A DNA stretch of 64,000 nt from Luteitalea pratensis. GTDB lineage: Bacteria; Acidobacteriota; Vicinamibacteria; Vicinamibacterales; Vicinamibacteraceae. The DNA lies in NCBI RefSeq assembly GCF_001618865.1, contig NZ_CP015136.1, positions 779,001-843,000 of the forward strand, given 5' to 3'. Below the pieces are notes generated by a model. That model was not told the DNA's origin. It ran no database searches and saw only the letters and a list, made by a program, of their open reading frames with translations. This document shows positions 13,554-54,613 of the stretch, in pieces; within the stretch, counting starts at the first letter, position 1, and each line of letters opens with the position of its first letter. Position numbers and translations under genes: made by a program.

Positions 13554-13645
13554 CAGAGTGCTCCTCGTCGGGTCCTTGAGTGATGGAAGCGTCGAGCTGA
13601 CCCGGCCGACGAAGCCGGGCGCCCGGTTGATGGTGCCCCGACCCC

Positions 13646-13715
13646 GGTACCCGGTACCCGGTACCCGGTACCCGGTACCCGGTACCCGGTACCCGGTTCC
13701 CGGTTCCCGGTTCCC
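13646..13715 (+). repeat. Heptamer array, unit GGTACCC then GGTTCCC (10 units)
   Basis: Seven GGTACCC units are followed by three GGTTCCC units in perfect register. The array ends one base before the stop codon of the minus-strand aldehyde dehydrogenase. It fills much of the spacer upstream of the DUF885 gene. Confidence 0.92.
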
Positions 13716-13716
13716 G

Positions 13717-15162: not shown

Positions 15163-15210
15163 GTCCTACAGCCTACAGCGCCGCGCTCTCATCAGGTAGC
15201 CTTCTACCCT

Positions 15211-15287
15211 GAGACCTGAGACCTGAGACCTGAGACCTGAGACCTCAGACCTGAGACCTCAGACCTGAGACTTGAGACTTGAGACTA
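15211..15287 (+). repeat. Heptamer array, unit GAGACCT (11 units) entering a gene start
   Basis: Eleven units in strict 7-bp register: GAGACCT with CAGACCT, GAGACTT and GAGACTA variants. The last two units contain the TTG start codon (15279-15281) and codons 2-3 of the downstream phosphatase gene. Confidence 0.92.
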
Positions 15288-21403: not shown

Positions 21404-21452
21404 GACCTGAGACCTGAGACCTGAGACCTGAGACCTGAGACCTGAGACCTGA
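21404..21452 (+). repeat. Heptamer array, unit GACCTGA (7 units)
   Basis: Seven perfect GACCTGA units, preceded and followed by degenerate TCAAGTCTCA-like and GAGACG blocks. It is upstream of the S41 peptidase gene. Confidence 0.92.
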
Positions 21453-21556
21453 GACCCTGGGAACTGAGACGTCTCCAGTCGTGTCTTGAGACGTGAGACC
21501 TGCGACTGTACGAGAATGGGTCGCGCCGCGCCTGACGCCCGGCGCCACCCATACTC

Positions 21557-30922: not shown

Positions 30923-33715
30923 ATGCCAGAGTCCGAGTCCAGACGCTTACCCGCGCGCCTTCGTCGCGCGTCGCTCATCTTCTGCCTCGTTGCAGCCGGC
31001 GCCGCGGCCATCGGCACGGAGTCGCGTGCCGCTGCCGGGCAGGCGGCCGTTGCCGCGCCGACGACCTCGTCAGGCATCACGTCGCCCAGGGAGCAATTCG
31101 GGTTCGCCATCGGTGACGATTACCAGCTCGCAACGTACGAGCAGCTCACCGCGTACTGGAAGCGGCTCGACGAGCAGTCGGACCGCATGAGCCTCGTCGA
31201 CATCGGCAAGACCGCCGAGGGTCGCCCGCAGTGGATGGCCATCATCACCTCGCCGGAGAACCATCGCAAGCTGGAGCGCCTGAAGACCATCGCGCGCCGG
31301 CTGGCCCTGGCCGAGGACGTCTCGACCGAATCCGAGGCGCGGGCGTTGGCCGCGGAGGGCAAGGCGGTGGTGTGGATCGACGGGGGACTGCACGCCAACG
31401 AGACGCTCGGCGCGCAGCAACTGATCGAGACTGTGTACCAACTGGTGAGCGGCACCGACGCGGAACTCACGCGCATCCTCGACAACGTCGTGATCCTTGC
31501 GGTGCACGCCAACCCGGACGGCCACGACCTGGTCGCCAACTGGTACCTGCGCGAGCGCGATCCCCTCAAGCGCTCGCTCGACGACCTGCCCCGGCTCTAC
31601 CAGAAGTACGCGGGTCACGACAACAACCGCGACTCGTACATGAGCGCGCTTGCCGAGTCGGCGAACATGAACCGCGTGTTGTACCGCGAGTGGTACCCGC
31701 AGATCATGTACAACCACCACCAGACGGGCCCAATCGGCACCGTCATGTTCGCGCCGCCGTTCCGCGATCCGTTCAACTACGTGTTCGACCCGCTGATACC
31801 GACGACGCTCGACCTGGTCGGTGCGGCGATGCACACCAGGTTCGCCGCCGAGAACAAGCCCGGCGTGACGATGCGCAGGGGAGCGAACTATTCCACGTGG
31901 TGGAATGGCGGGCTGCGAACCACGGTGTACTTCCACAACATGGTCGGTCTGCTTACTGAGACGATCGGCAATCCGACCCCCATCGAGATTCCGTTCAGGC
32001 CCGATCGTCAGTTGCCGAGCGCCGATCTCCCGTTCCCGATCGCCCCGCAGACGTGGCACATGCGGCAGAGCATCGAGTACTCGCTGACGGCCAACCGTGC
32101 CGTGTTCGACCTGGCGGCGCGCTATCGCGAGCAGTTCCTCTTCAACATCTGGCGCATGGGGCGCAACGCCATCGAACGTGGCCAGCGTGACACCTGGACG
32201 ATGTACCCGCGCCGAGTGCAGAAGGTGCAGGCGGCGGCGCAGGCGTCGGGGTCCGCGTCCGCGCAGCGATCGCCTCGCGGCGCTGCCGGCAGCGCGCCGC
32301 GGGCGCTGTTTGACACCGTGCTCCGCGACCCGGCACTGCGTGACCCGCGCGGTTACGTGCTGGCTGCCGATCAGGCCGACTTCCCGACGGCGATCACCTT
32401 CGTGAACACCCTCATCAGGGCCGGTGTGACAGTCCATCGCGCGACCGCACCGTTCACCGTGCAGGGCCGCTCGTATCCCGCGGGGTCGCTGGTCGTGAAG
32501 ACCGCGCAGGCGTTCCGGCCGCACGTGCTCGACATGTTCGAGCCACAGGATCACCCCGACGACTTCCAGTACCCCGGTGGGCCGCCCATCCCGCCGTACG
32601 ACAGCGCAGGCTGGACGCTGGCGTTCCAGATGGGCGTGCAGGCCGATCGCATCCTCGATGCCTTCGACGGGCCGTTCGAGCGCGTGCCCGATGAACTCGG
32701 CATCCCCCCAGGCCGCGTGACCGGCGCCGCCTCGGCCAATGCGTTCGTCTTCACTCACCAGAGCAACCAGGCGTTCAGGGCCATCAACCGGCTCCTGAAG
32801 GCGGGCGAGCGCGTCGAGTGGCTGCCCGACGGGCGGTTTCGCGTCGCCGGCACGCGCGCGACGAAGGCGCGGCTCACGGAGATCGCCGCCAGCACCGGCG
32901 TGAATTTCGAGGGTGTCACCGAGGCGACGCCCGGCGGGCAGGCGCTCGGTCCGGTGCGGATCGCCCTCTGGGACCGCTACGGCGGGTCGATGCCCTCAGG
33001 CTGGCTGCGGCTGGTGCTTGAACAGTTCGAGTTCCCTTACGAAGTTGTGTACCCGCCGCAATTGGACGCAGGACAGTTGCGGTCGAAGTACGACGTCATC
33101 ATCCTGCCCGACGGCGCCATCCCGGAGGCCGGCGCCGGCGCGTTTGCGGCACGGGCACTGCGATCCGAGAACATCCCGGACGAGTACCGCGCCCGCATCG
33201 GCGCCTACTCGGAGGCCACGACGCTGCCGCAGTTGCGTGCATTCCTCGAGGCAGGCGGGACGGTGCTGACGATCGGGAGTTCGACGGCGCTGGGGCAGCA
33301 GCTCGGATTGCCGGTCGGCAACAAACTCGTCGACGCCAAGGGCGCCCCTCTTGCCGCCGAGCAGTTCTACGTGCCGGGCTCGATCCTGCGCGTGAAGGTG
33401 GACACGACCCAACCGCTTGCCCAGGGGCTGCGCGCCGAGACCGACGTCTACTTCGACAACAGCCCGGTCTTCACGTTGCCCGCTGATGCCAAGTCGAAGG
33501 GAATCACGCCTGTTGCCTGGTTCGATTCACCGGCGCCACTGCGCAGCGGGTGGGCGTGGGGCCAGGCACAGTTGGACGGTGGCGTCGCCATCGCAGAGGC
33601 GAAGGTAGGGCAGGGGCGTCTCGTCCTGTTCGGACCGGAAATCACCTTCCGGGCCCAGCCGCACGGCACGTTCAAGTTCCTGTTCAACGGCATCTACCGC
33701 AGCTCTGTGAGGTAG
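30923..33715 (+). CDS. Large exported M14-family peptidase
   Basis: 930 aa with a signal-like N-terminus (ASLIFCLVAAGAAA). The M14 zinc site is GGLHANE (His157, Glu160) with a candidate third His in MYNHHQTG. A long C-terminal region (IALWDRYGGSMPSGWLR, YDVIILPDGAIPEAG) has the same amidotransferase-like fold as the gene at 26650. Its TAG stop codon is the TAG of a REP-like GTAG head. Substrate is likely peptides; specificity is unknown. Confidence 0.86.
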   Translation: MPESESRRLPARLRRASLIFCLVAAGAAAIGTESRAAAGQAAVAAPTTSSGITSPREQFGFAIGDDYQLATYEQLTAYWKRLDEQSDRMSLVDIGKTAEGRPQWMAIITSPENHRKLERLKTIARRLALAEDVSTESEARALAAEGKAVVWIDGGLHANETLGAQQLIETVYQLVSGTDAELTRILDNVVILAVHANPDGHDLVANWYLRERDPLKRSLDDLPRLYQKYAGHDNNRDSYMSALAESANMNRVLYREWYPQIMYNHHQTGPIGTVMFAPPFRDPFNYVFDPLIPTTLDLVGAAMHTRFAAENKPGVTMRRGANYSTWWNGGLRTTVYFHNMVGLLTETIGNPTPIEIPFRPDRQLPSADLPFPIAPQTWHMRQSIEYSLTANRAVFDLAARYREQFLFNIWRMGRNAIERGQRDTWTMYPRRVQKVQAAAQASGSASAQRSPRGAAGSAPRALFDTVLRDPALRDPRGYVLAADQADFPTAITFVNTLIRAGVTVHRATAPFTVQGRSYPAGSLVVKTAQAFRPHVLDMFEPQDHPDDFQYPGGPPIPPYDSAGWTLAFQMGVQADRILDAFDGPFERVPDELGIPPGRVTGAASANAFVFTHQSNQAFRAINRLLKAGERVEWLPDGRFRVAGTRATKARLTEIAASTGVNFEGVTEATPGGQALGPVRIALWDRYGGSMPSGWLRLVLEQFEFPYEVVYPPQLDAGQLRSKYDVIILPDGAIPEAGAGAFAARALRSENIPDEYRARIGAYSEATTLPQLRAFLEAGGTVLTIGSSTALGQQLGLPVGNKLVDAKGAPLAAEQFYVPGSILRVKVDTTQPLAQGLRAETDVYFDNSPVFTLPADAKSKGITPVAWFDSPAPLRSGWAWGQAQLDGGVAIAEAKVGQGRLVLFGPEITFRAQPHGTFKFLFNGIYRSSVR

Positions 33716-33822
33716 GGACCGCTCTCTGAGCGGTCCATCTCCTACTCCTGGCGGTCGATGGCCATGAAGAGGGGGACGCTTCGGGCGGCGTGGTCATGGA
33801 CGCCTCGGAGAGGCGTCCCTAC
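33712..33822. repeat. Pair of opposed GTAG-headed palindromes (BIME-like)
   Basis: Plus-strand copy 33712-33736: GTAG, stem GGACCGCTC, loop TCT, stem GAGCGGTCC. Minus-strand copy 33798-33822: GTAG, stem GGACGCCTC, loop TCC, stem GAGGCGTCC. The TAG of the first head is the stop codon of the M14 gene. The same two stem types recur, with orientations swapped, in the 53.4-54.1 kb array. Confidence 0.85.
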
Positions 33823-33867: not shown

Positions 33868-34728
33868 ATGCGACGAGCGCCTGCGTTTGCCGTCCTCGGG
33901 TTCCTCGCCGCGCTCGCGGCGGAACTGCCGGCCCAACCTCCTGGCGCCTGGCAGTCGCTCGTGGAGGCGGAGCGCGCGTTCGCCGCCGACTCCGTCCGGA
34001 CCACGATTCGTGAGGCGTTCCTTGCGCATCTGCATCCGCAGTCGGTGCTGTTCAACCCAGGCCCGGTCAACGGCATCGAGCTCTACACCGGCCGGCCGCC
34101 GCGGGCCGGGCAGCTCGCGTGGGCCCCAGAGGTCGTGGACGTCGCGGTGTCCGGCGACTTCGGCTACTCGACGGGGCCGCACCAGTTTCGCCGCACGCCG
34201 GACGGCGAAGTCTTGCGGCAGGGGTATTTCTGCAGTGTGTGGGTGCGTTCGGCGAGCGCGCCCTGGAAAGTCCTGATCGACCTCGGCACGGCCCAGCCGA
34301 CGCCGGTAACGCTCGACGTGACCCCGCGGGACCCGACGCCCGCGGCCGGGGTCTCGGCGGGTGCCGGCGCCGCGGCCACACTCGCGGAGGCGGAGCGGCA
34401 GTTCGCGCAGGCGGCCGAACGAGACCAGGTCGCGACGTACCGCGCCCTGCTCGCACGGCACGCGCGCGTGTACCGCGATGGCGGCGCCCCGACGGAGGGC
34501 GTGCTTCCGGCCCTGGAGGTGATTGCGCGCCGTGGCACACTCGCGCGCGTCACACCGGAGAAGACCGACGTGGCGTCATCGGGCGACATGGGTTACGCGT
34601 ACGGTCGTCTCGAACTGGCCGACGCTGGTCCCGGTGCGGCCCCCGTCTACTACGTGCGCGTCTGGCGGCACGACCCGCAAGGCTGGCGCGTCGTGCTCGA
34701 CGTGGACACGTGGGTCGCTACACACTGA
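33868..34728 (+). CDS. Exported NTF2-like (DUF4440) double-domain protein
   Basis: 286 aa. Signal peptide MRRAPAFAVLGFLAALAAELPAQ. Two tandem NTF2/SnoaL-like domains are suggested by repeated helix-sheet patterns: SLVEAERAFAADSV with VAVSGDFGYSTGPHQF, and TLAEAERQFAQAAERD with VASSGDMGYAYGRLEL. Such domains bind small hydrophobic ligands or act as hydrolases/isomerases. No catalytic residues are identifiable. The stop codon is the first unit of a heptamer array. Confidence 0.75.
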   Translation: MRRAPAFAVLGFLAALAAELPAQPPGAWQSLVEAERAFAADSVRTTIREAFLAHLHPQSVLFNPGPVNGIELYTGRPPRAGQLAWAPEVVDVAVSGDFGYSTGPHQFRRTPDGEVLRQGYFCSVWVRSASAPWKVLIDLGTAQPTPVTLDVTPRDPTPAAGVSAGAGAAATLAEAERQFAQAAERDQVATYRALLARHARVYRDGGAPTEGVLPALEVIARRGTLARVTPEKTDVASSGDMGYAYGRLELADAGPGAAPVYYVRVWRHDPQGWRVVLDVDTWVATH

Positions 34729-34816
34729 ACGCTGAACGCTGAACGCTGAACGCTGAACGCTGAACGCCGAACGCCGAACGTCGAACGTCGAACATCGAAC
34801 GTCGACCGCCGACCGC
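34726..34816 (+). repeat. Heptamer array TGAACGC drifting to CGAACGT and CGACCGC (13 units)
   Basis: Thirteen units in strict register: six TGAACGC, then CGAACGC, CGAACGT, CGAACGT, CGAACAT, CGAACGT and two CGACCGC. The first TGA is the stop codon of the preceding gene. Confidence 0.92.
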
Positions 34817-34829
34817 TGAACAGAGGGAC

Positions 34830-41608: not shown

Positions 41609-41699
41609 CCTGAGACCTGACGCATGAAGCATGAGGCCTGAGACCTGAGACCTGAGACCTGACGCATGAGGCCTGAGACCTGAGACCTGCGACCTGAGA
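41609..41699 (+). repeat. Register-locked heptamer array, CCTGAGA with CATGAGG blocks (13 units)
   Basis: Thirteen units in one register: CCTGAGA types alternate in blocks with CATGAAG/CATGAGG types. It lies in the 306-bp spacer before the SEC-C gene, which otherwise contains only the REP-like element at 41503. Confidence 0.9.
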
Positions 41700-41812
41700 C
41701 CTCGCGGGTCCTTGACACTGACGGTGTTCGTGACAGGACGCCTTGACGCAAGAGCCTCGCCGGCGGGATCGTGCTCGTCGTGGCGAAGTCACCAGGCCGC
41801 TCGCGTTTTCCC

Positions 41813-52426: not shown

Positions 52427-53449
52427 ATGCGCATGCTGTTCTCCCTGTTCGGTATCGTGCTCACCACCGCCGTGGCCTCGGCCCAGCCGTCGCTCGACAT
52501 CTACTACCTCGATGTCGAGGGCGGTGCAGCCACGCTGATCGTCACCCCGGCGCGGGAGTCCGTCCTCGTCGATGCCGGCTGGCCAGGCAACGGCGGGCGC
52601 GACGTCGATCGGATCCAGGCGGCGATGAAGGCGGCCGGGATCACGCGCATCGACCACCTGATCGTCACGCACTACCACACCGATCACGTCGGTGGCGTGC
52701 CGCCCCTGCTCGCGAAGGTGCCGGTGGGGACCGTCTACGATCACGGCCTGATGTCGCCGCCGCACGATCCTGACTACGCCAGCAACTACGAGGCCTACGT
52801 GAAGGCCGTACCGCAGCGCAAGGGGCTGGCAGCCGGCGATGCCATTGGCCTCAAGCCGTCCGCCGATGGCACCCCCGTCTCGCTCAGCGTCGTCGCCGCG
52901 CATGGCAAGGTGCTGTCACGCGCGTCAGCACCGCGCAACGCCCGGTGCAGCAGCGTACCCGCCAAACCCGCCGACACCAGTGACAATGCCCGCAGCGTTG
53001 CGTTCGTGCTGACGTACGGGGCCTTCGACTTCTTCGACGCAGGCGACCTGACGTGGAACACCGAAGCCGAACTCGTGTGCCCGAACGTCAACGTGCCAGC
53101 GGTGGAGGTGTACCAGGTGACGCACCACGGGCTCGACGCCAGCAATCACCCGCTGTTGCTCGAGGCGCTCGCGCCCACGGTGGCGGTGATGAACAACGGT
53201 GCGAAGAAAGGGGGATCGGCTGCGACGGTGAAGACCCTCAAGTCGCTCCCGTCGTTGAAGGCGCTCTACCAACTGCACCGCAACGTCGCGACCGGGCCAG
53301 ACGACAACACCACGCCAGACCTGGTGGCCAACCCCGACGAGTCGCCCGATGCCGGTCACATGGTCAGCGTCCACGCGAAGAAGGACGGCTCGTTCGAGGT
53401 GGCCAACCACCGCACGGGGGAGAAGCGTTCGTTCGCCTCGGCCAGGTAG
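52427..53449 (+). CDS. Exported metallo-beta-lactamase-fold protein (ComEC C-domain-like)
   Basis: 340 aa. Signal peptide MRMLFSLFGIVLTTAVASA. Metal motif THYHTDHVGG, then FFDAGDLTW and TQ/VTHHGLD, as in ComEC/Rec2 C-terminal and related hydrolases. It probably binds two zinc ions and cleaves a phosphoester or similar bond in the periplasm. Its TAG stop lies in a REP-like head, and the last codons are part of a tandemly repeated 175-bp unit. Confidence 0.87.
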   Translation: MRMLFSLFGIVLTTAVASAQPSLDIYYLDVEGGAATLIVTPARESVLVDAGWPGNGGRDVDRIQAAMKAAGITRIDHLIVTHYHTDHVGGVPPLLAKVPVGTVYDHGLMSPPHDPDYASNYEAYVKAVPQRKGLAAGDAIGLKPSADGTPVSLSVVAAHGKVLSRASAPRNARCSSVPAKPADTSDNARSVAFVLTYGAFDFFDAGDLTWNTEAELVCPNVNVPAVEVYQVTHHGLDASNHPLLLEALAPTVAVMNNGAKKGGSAATVKTLKSLPSLKALYQLHRNVATGPDDNTTPDLVANPDESPDAGHMVSVHAKKDGSFEVANHRTGEKRSFASAR

Positions 53450-54107
53450 GGACGCCTCTCCGAGGCGTCCATCTCCTTGGTGAGACGTCTGCCCGCCCAG
53501 GCGTCATCTCCGCAGATGGACCGCTCGGAGAGCGGTCCCTACCCCTACCGCTCCAAGGTCATGGACCGCTCGGAGAGCCAACCACCGCACGGGGGAGAAG
53601 CGTTCGTTCGCCTCCTCCAGGTAGGGACGCCTCTCCGAGGCGTCCATCTCCTTGGTGAGACGTCTGCCCGCCCAGGCGTCATCTCCGCAGATGGACCGCT
53701 CGGAGAGCGGTCCCTACCCCTACCGCTCCAAGGTCATGGACCGCTCGGAGAGTCAACCACCGCACGGGGGAGAAGCGTTCGTTCGCCTCGGCCAGGTAGG
53801 GACGCCTCTCCGAGGCGTCCATCTCCTTGGTGAGACGTCTGCCCGCCCAGGCGTCATCTCCGCAGATGGACCGCACGGAGAGCGGTCCCTACCCCTACCG
53901 CTCCAAGGTCATGGACCGCTCGGAGAGCCAACCACCGCACGGGGGAGAAGCGTTCGTTCGCCTCGGCCAGGTAGGGACGCCTCTCCGAGGCGTCCATCTC
54001 CTTGGTGAGACGTCTGCCCGCCCAGGCGTCATCTCCGCAGATGAACCGCTCGGAGAGCGGTCCCTACCCGACCGCTCCAAGGTCATGGACCGCTCGGAGA
54101 GCGGTCC
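53403..54107. repeat. Tandem 175-bp array (four units) holding opposed REP palindromes
   Basis: Units begin at 53403, 53578, 53753 and 53928, each 175 bp. A unit contains the last 47 bp of the MBL gene (original plus three copies), a plus-strand GTAG palindrome (stem GGACGCCTC), a middle hairpin (GACGTCTG with CAGGCGTC) and a minus-strand GTAG palindrome (stem GGACCGCTC). The last ends next to the dps stop. Duplication junctions lie inside a truncated palindrome. The 660-bp spacer has no credible gene; three 118-aa frames are the repeat read in turn. Confidence 0.93.
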
Positions 54108-54109
54108 AC

Positions 54110-54613
54110 CTATCCGCGGTGCGACTCGACGAACCACAGGTACTTGTCGACCCCGTGTGCGATTCCAGTCAGGAGATCGACGGTGACCGCATCCTCGAGT
54201 TCGTCGGCATCCTCGATGGCCTGACGCAGCGCGGTCCCGAGCTTTGCGAGGGCCGACGAAAGGCACTCCACGTGGCTCTTCCAGTCCTGCGCGTCGACCG
54301 GATACGGCGGCAGCGTGGTCCGCTCGACGACGGCCTGCGACGTGCCGACGGCGACGCCGCCGAGCATCACGGCCCGTTCGGCGATTTCGTCCTTGTACGT
54401 GGCCGCTGAGGCCGAGACCTGGTCGAAGAGTTCGTGAAGGCCGATGAAGTTCGGGCCCTTGACGTTCCAGTGCGCCTGCTTGGCCTGCAGCTCGAGATCG
54501 ATGACATCGGCGAGGCGGGCATTCAACAACTCGACCACCGACTGCCGTGTCTCGGCGTCGAGGCCATGCTTGGTGCTGTTCAGGTGTATCTCGGCAACGC
54601 TCTTGTTCGACAT
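54110..54613 (-). CDS. dps: Dps-family DNA-binding ferritin-like protein
   Basis: 167 aa. The ferroxidase signature AKQAHWNVKGPNFIGLHELF and DEIAERAVMLGG match Dps dodecamers, which oxidise Fe(II) with hydrogen peroxide, store iron and protect DNA in starvation or stress. A short N-terminal tail precedes helix A. It converges on the MBL gene across the 175-bp array and lies within 4 kb of feoAB. Confidence 0.95.
   Translation of the reverse strand: MSNKSVAEIHLNSTKHGLDAETRQSVVELLNARLADVIDLELQAKQAHWNVKGPNFIGLHELFDQVSASAATYKDEIAERAVMLGGVAVGTSQAVVERTTLPPYPVDAQDWKSHVECLSSALAKLGTALRQAIEDADELEDAVTVDLLTGIAHGVDKYLWFVESHRG

Follow-up and report, generated by a model that had tools for sequence, protein, structure and literature searches.

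A four-copy tandem array of paired REP palindromes between convergent genes of Luteitalea pratensis

Architecture of the array

How did a piece of DNA that holds two facing palindromes and the end of a gene come to stand four times in a row between two convergent genes of Luteitalea pratensis? We analyzed this locus within a window of 64,000 nucleotides, i.e., the whole stretch at positions 779001–843000 of the genome, a single contig of 7,480,314 bp. The array occupies window positions 53403–54101, where four copies of a 175-bp unit follow each other head to tail (TRF: period 175, 4.0 copies, 97% matches, score 1353, at 53402–54102). Each unit runs from the 3′-terminal 47 bp of an MBL-superfamily gene (53403–53449 in unit 1) through a GCC-type REP on the plus strand, a 47-bp spacer and a CGC-type REP on the minus strand to a partial third palindrome (Table 1). 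The REPs of each unit read GTAGGGACGCC../GGCGTCC (+) and GTAGGGACCGC../GCGGTCC (−). The original prediction of a tandem amplification of a REP pair together with a gene end was thus borne out, including the exact 175-bp spacing of the unit starts, the 47 bp of the MBL gene and the two opposed GTAG palindromes with different stems; the last unit measures 174 bp up to the breakpoint. About six small events in 700 bp distinguish the units. The third palindrome is truncated in units 1–3 and whole only at the array end (to 54107/54111), with the right edge of the array at its position 10–11.

Table 1. Features of the array and its flanking genes (window positions)
Feature	Position	Strand	Remarks
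MBL-superfamily gene (Lactamase_B)	52427..53449	+	ORF; PF00753, 56.2 bits
Unit 1	53403..53577	+	175 bp; only copy whose CDS tail is still coding
REP, GCC stem type	53446..53470	+	copies at 53621-53645, 53796-53820, 53971-53995; four exact matches
Structured spacer between REPs	53471..53517		predicted to fold with both REPs into one long hairpin
REP, CGC stem type, opposed to GCC REP	53518..53542	−	copies at 53693-53717, 53868-53892 (1 mismatch), 54043-54067 (1 mismatch)
Third CGC palindrome, truncated in arm at unit junction	53563..53577	−	copies at 53738-53752, 53913-53927
Unit 2	53578..53752	+	175 bp; vs unit 1, GG to CT in CDS-tail copy
Unit 3	53753..53927	+	175 bp; vs unit 1, two substitutions, one in second REP
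Unit 4	53928..54101	+	174 bp to breakpoint; vs unit 1, one substitution and CT to G
Third palindrome at array end, stem whole	54087..54111	−	GTAG tag decayed, 4 mismatches to CGC REP
Dps-like ferritin gene, convergent	54110..54613	−	ORF; PF00210

As had been proposed, the flanking genes are convergent, with 660 bp from the MBL stop to the Dps-like stop. The MBL gene ends at a TAG stop that belongs to the GTAG of the first REP. Of the 280 REPs whose TAG is intact, 29 have it in use as the stop of a called gene. REP-supplied TAG stops are described for other bacteria in parts of an earlier account (PMC3733652).

The RNA fold of 53446–53577 in unit 1 was predicted at −74.6 kcal/mol (z −6.65; shuffles −49.0, sd 3.9). 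In this fold, the third hairpin that had been suggested between the REPs does not stand alone: it forms the end of a single long hairpin that contains both REPs and the spacer and is broken up by small internal loops. By its predicted fold, the pair is therefore a REPIN, i.e., two inverted REPs able to form one hairpin. We rejected a coding repeat array, since REPs are present in the units and a length of 175 bp is not divisible by three, and also a known RNA family, since an Rfam scan of 53300–54300 with 4227 families gave no match at E ≤ 1.

A second facing REP pair lies at 33712–33822 of the window and is mismatched too, with a CGC-type REP of changed loop (+, 33712–33736) and a GCC-type REP (−, 33798–33822). 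The window also holds many tandem arrays of 7-bp period with differing units, e.g., at 13643–13716, 15208–15285, 21404–21470, 34727–34821 and 41609–41702. They are unrelated to the REPs in sequence and reminiscent of cyanobacterial heptamer repeats.

The REP family and RAYT genes

Three 25-mers make up the core of the family, each consisting of GTAGGGAC, the triplet GCC, CGC or GGC, TCTCCGA (with GGC also TCTCTGA), the complement and GTCC. Exact copies number 73 (GCC), 77 (CGC) and 55 (GGC), i.e., at least 205 in total. A looser pattern gave 256 matches in the L. pratensis genome compared with 15 in a reversed control. Among relatives it gave 23 matches in G004 (control 11), 75 in G005 (control 19) and 35 in G006 (control 18). 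The search covered 40 genomes, L. pratensis included, and the remaining 36 gave at most six matches. The REP centre in G005 and G006 is mostly TCGCCGA.

We took 77 stretches (703 kb) around REPs, covering all 205 exact copies, and found 291 REPs in them by a degenerate scan; base-shuffled versions of 30 of the 77 stretches gave no match, compared with 94 in the real sequence. By gene context, 117 clusters were assigned after seven near stretch ends had been dropped: 40 lie between unidirectional, 31 between convergent and 10 between divergent genes, two miss a neighbour on one side, and 34 lie inside an ORF, although with the simple gene caller used these may partly be spurious ORFs. The family is thus high in copy number, mainly intergenic and found at gene 3′ ends, and its members have an unpaired GTAG, a 9-bp perfect stem and a 3-base TCC loop, as expected of the GTAG REP super-family.

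The stem and loop sequences of Escherichia coli BIME-2 differ from those of the Luteitalea REPs. In the part of the BIME-2 description available, several tandem copies of a unit with oppositely oriented REPs are a feature shared with the Luteitalea array (PMC2817692). The GTAG super-family in passages of its description shares the unpaired GTAG tag, the 9-bp stem, the 3-base loop and facing (HH) dimers (PMC3733652, Di Nocera 2013). Further shared features are heterodimers, which occur in some of its families, clusters in tandem that include flanking DNA, TAG supplied as a stop, and a location at convergent 3′ ends (PMC3733652). In the available portion of that account no such family from Acidobacteria was found; its one passage on this phylum deals with RAYT-like genes whose terminal repeats are of another kind, TIRYTs (PMC3733652). 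The class 3 TnpA elements of Acidobacteria, as partly documented, are likewise high-copy palindromes tied to Y1 transposases, with about 600 structures in Solibacter usitatus, but they have a CnGA foot instead of GTAG and another transposase Y motif (YLRQNP in Luteitalea) (PMC6006769).

Two Y1 transposase genes with intact frames, at 4000311–4000772 and 1497499–1497918, are flanked by GTAG palindromes, and both score above the PF01797 cut-off. H78-x-H80 and Y131, presumably the HUH motif and catalytic tyrosine expected in the Y1 transposase domain of a RAYT, are invariant among four aligned sequences. REPs of its own type lie on both sides of the gene at 4000311–4000772, as expected of a RAYT, and this intact gene is adjoined by an array of 15 × 56 bp with a GGC-type REP in each unit (G000:C1:3999436–4000274; stretch L064, 6504–7342). 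A third Y1 transposase (G000:C1:2122613–2122866; stretches L010 and L011) is broken into two pieces with a TAG inside, and the 9 kb around it contain no GTAGGG palindrome. Relatives of the RAYT at 4000311–4000772 are 62% identical in G001 and 55% in G004, where palindromes with other stems flank them. At E ≤ 0.001, G006 lacks a RAYT relative and G005 has only a 30% one. G006 therefore has its REP pattern matches without a RAYT relative, and the REP–RAYT link is not clean across relatives.

Tandem arrays at REPs and the probable origin of the 175-bp array

The 175-bp array is not unique in the genome. Arrays with a period of at least 12 (TRF) overlap 36 of 124 REP clusters; 45 arrays overlap REP clusters (15.9 kb) and 30 lie in the remaining sequence of the stretches. 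Among intergenic gaps of 60–1500 bp, defined with a simple codon-based gene caller, 31 of 86 with a REP but only 17 of 187 without one hold an array (odds 5.6, P = 2e-7 in a Fisher test that treats gaps as independent). For periods of at least 30 the counts are 15 of 86 and 1 of 187 (P = 1.4e-7, same test), and in both comparisons the control gaps share the REP neighbourhoods, since the stretches are centred on REPs. A gene 3′ tail of at least 10 bp is present in just 3 of the 45 REP arrays (23, 48 and 10 bp), and we hence conclude that the CDS tail is incidental.

The closest sister array, 177 bp × 5.9, carries the same two REP types in reverse order (G000:C1:4605329–4606374; stretch L076, 3976–5021). 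Its period is divisible by three, and a minus-strand ORF that is long but perhaps spurious spans it. Another array has 19 units of 15 bp, each made of a REP loop and 3′ arm (G000:C1:6572336–6572623; stretch L102, 6476–6763), and in some others the repeated piece is just the GTAG half of a REP and a few bases next to it.

In the relative G004, the syntenic MBL gene (protein 77% identical) and the Dps-like gene converge with stops 6 bp apart and no REP between them. In G001, both genes stop in TAGs at opposite ends of a short GTAGGG...CCCTAC palindromic insert, perhaps an unrelated or decayed REP pair; this was noted just after the MBL gene (stretch L015, 2501–2520 onward). The array is absent from both of these closest orthologous loci. 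As G004 lacks it, the array either arose in the L. pratensis line once this had parted from G004 or has since disappeared from G004. Its proposed recent age stands in a relative sense, given this absence and the few differences between units.

We consider it probable that the array originated from a REPIN insertion at the stop codons, followed by an illegitimate duplication provoked by the hairpin and by expansion between the copies. A REPIN, i.e., a facing pair of GTAG-tagged REPs with the third palindrome, would have inserted at the abutting 3′ ends of the convergent genes and supplied the MBL stop; its putative spreader would be a RAYT encoded elsewhere in the genome. The hairpin DNA may then have provoked a tandem duplication when synthesis halted in the third palindrome and restarted in the end of the MBL gene, with microhomology of about 2 bp. 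With two 175-bp copies present, slippage or unequal recombination could then have raised their number to four. In favour of this course of events are the high-copy REP family, the intact RAYT genes flanked by such palindromes, the REP-free locus of G004 and the concentration of arrays at REPs.

At the junction, only GC is common to both parent sequences, which points to an illegitimate first duplication and not to recombination between repeats. Both duplication ends had been placed in a truncated palindrome; this holds for the right-hand end, but the left breakpoint lies in coding sequence, which counts against a hairpin-provoked duplication. Array edges elsewhere point both ways. Outside called REPs lie 59 of 90 edges, again counting against it, and 31 lie within. 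Of these 31, 22 fall at positions 8–14 of 25 where 28% were expected (binomial P = 8e-7, for a range picked after inspection of the histogram); the right edge of the 175-bp array was left out of this count, its third palindrome being too diverged.

That the RAYT transposase itself built the array, through cleavage at GTAG and tandem joining of the REP circles it had excised, would fit the REP array found next to a RAYT gene, but we regard it as unlikely: the ends of the 175-bp unit do not coincide with GTAG, one lying 43 bp upstream in the gene and one within a palindrome, and GTAG starts are rare among the other arrays. Alternatively, selection might keep the array as a BIME-2-like element that would act as gyrase site, transcription barrier or 3′-end stabilizer. 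The position between convergent genes and the strong predicted fold of the REP pair are in line with such a role, as are reports, in the part of the source at hand, that BIME-2 binds gyrase and that REPs affect Rho-dependent termination (PMC2817692). We find selection improbable as the explanation, since the copies are already drifting, with one REP stem base and bases of the CDS tail changed, similar arrays stand at many unrelated sites, and the relatives manage without one.

The array is known from the assembly, so that a single unit in the true chromosome might have been misassembled. We take the acidobacterial strain HEG_-6_39 to be the L. pratensis analyzed here. Its 7,480,314-bp genome was published from Illumina data and from PacBio reads (HGAP), whose mean length of 13,738 bp is roughly 20-fold that of the array (PMC4882960). 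With four non-identical copies and a mean PacBio read of 13.7 kb, an assembly artefact is hardly credible.

For such an array there are precedents. In Pseudomonas fluorescens SBW25, tandem REPIN clusters with flanks adjoin RAYTs, and the largest given in the part of the report available has four REPINs and one REP in more than 700 bp (PMC3116915, Bertels and Rainey 2011). SBW25 belongs to a different phylum, its doublets as described there are inverted copies of one REP group, whereas the REPs of a Luteitalea pair always differ, and the Luteitalea unit includes a CDS tail. Descriptions from other bacteria already exist for REPINs arrayed in tandem with their flanks, for stops whose TAG comes from a REP and for REP pairs that do not match. 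A literature search joining REP, tandem duplication and hairpin found no paper. A search with Luteitalea and REP terms gave none naming Luteitalea among the matches listed, although 'repin' and 'rayt' also matched inside other words and absence from print is unproven. The array adds a clean example of a REPIN multiplied in tandem, in which both breakpoints can be read and for which a relative has a locus free of REPs.

Mismatched REP pairs

The most interesting by-product, which outranks the array itself, is the mismatch within REP pairs. All 97 facing pairs less than 250 bp apart in the 77 stretches are mismatched, with not one identical pair; in four the stem triplets agree but a further base of stem or loop differs. 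Positions 7 and 9–11 carry the same bases in one of the 97 pairs, whose centre differs, whereas 2000 shuffles of partners averaged 29.3 such pairs and never gave fewer than 15. An uninterrupted arm-to-arm match of 15 bp was found in three pairs and none was longer, compared with a shuffle mean of 30.9 pairs with 15 bp or more; the shuffle ignores common descent and copies within arrays. When the count was limited to exact REPs and each cluster contributed a single pair, 0 of 50 were matched. In 22 stretches from relatives, 18 opposed neighbours were mismatched, and the one scored as matched is a single near-perfect palindrome that was called on each strand at a distance of 4 bp.

Among the genes of L. 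pratensis is one for an SbcD homologue (170 bits, above the NCBIfam cut-off). Heterodimer-only REP families are known, and in passages of the GTAG super-family account their preference is without obvious explanation, with protection from SbcCD proposed (PMC3733652). As a tentative and rather doubtful rule, REP pairs in this family of Acidobacteriota might persist only if their arms cannot form a long uninterrupted duplex. An SbcCD-type palindrome nuclease would remove matched pairs and the rule would drive the splitting into stem types, while imperfect hairpins would escape cutting, stall synthesis and seed tandem arrays like the 175-bp one. Alternatively, RAYT may need two different ends, and the evidence does not separate the two readings. 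With three main REP stem types, 97 mismatched pairs, an SbcD homologue and dozens of REP-centred arrays, the L. pratensis chromosome is a natural test set for the SbcCD idea.
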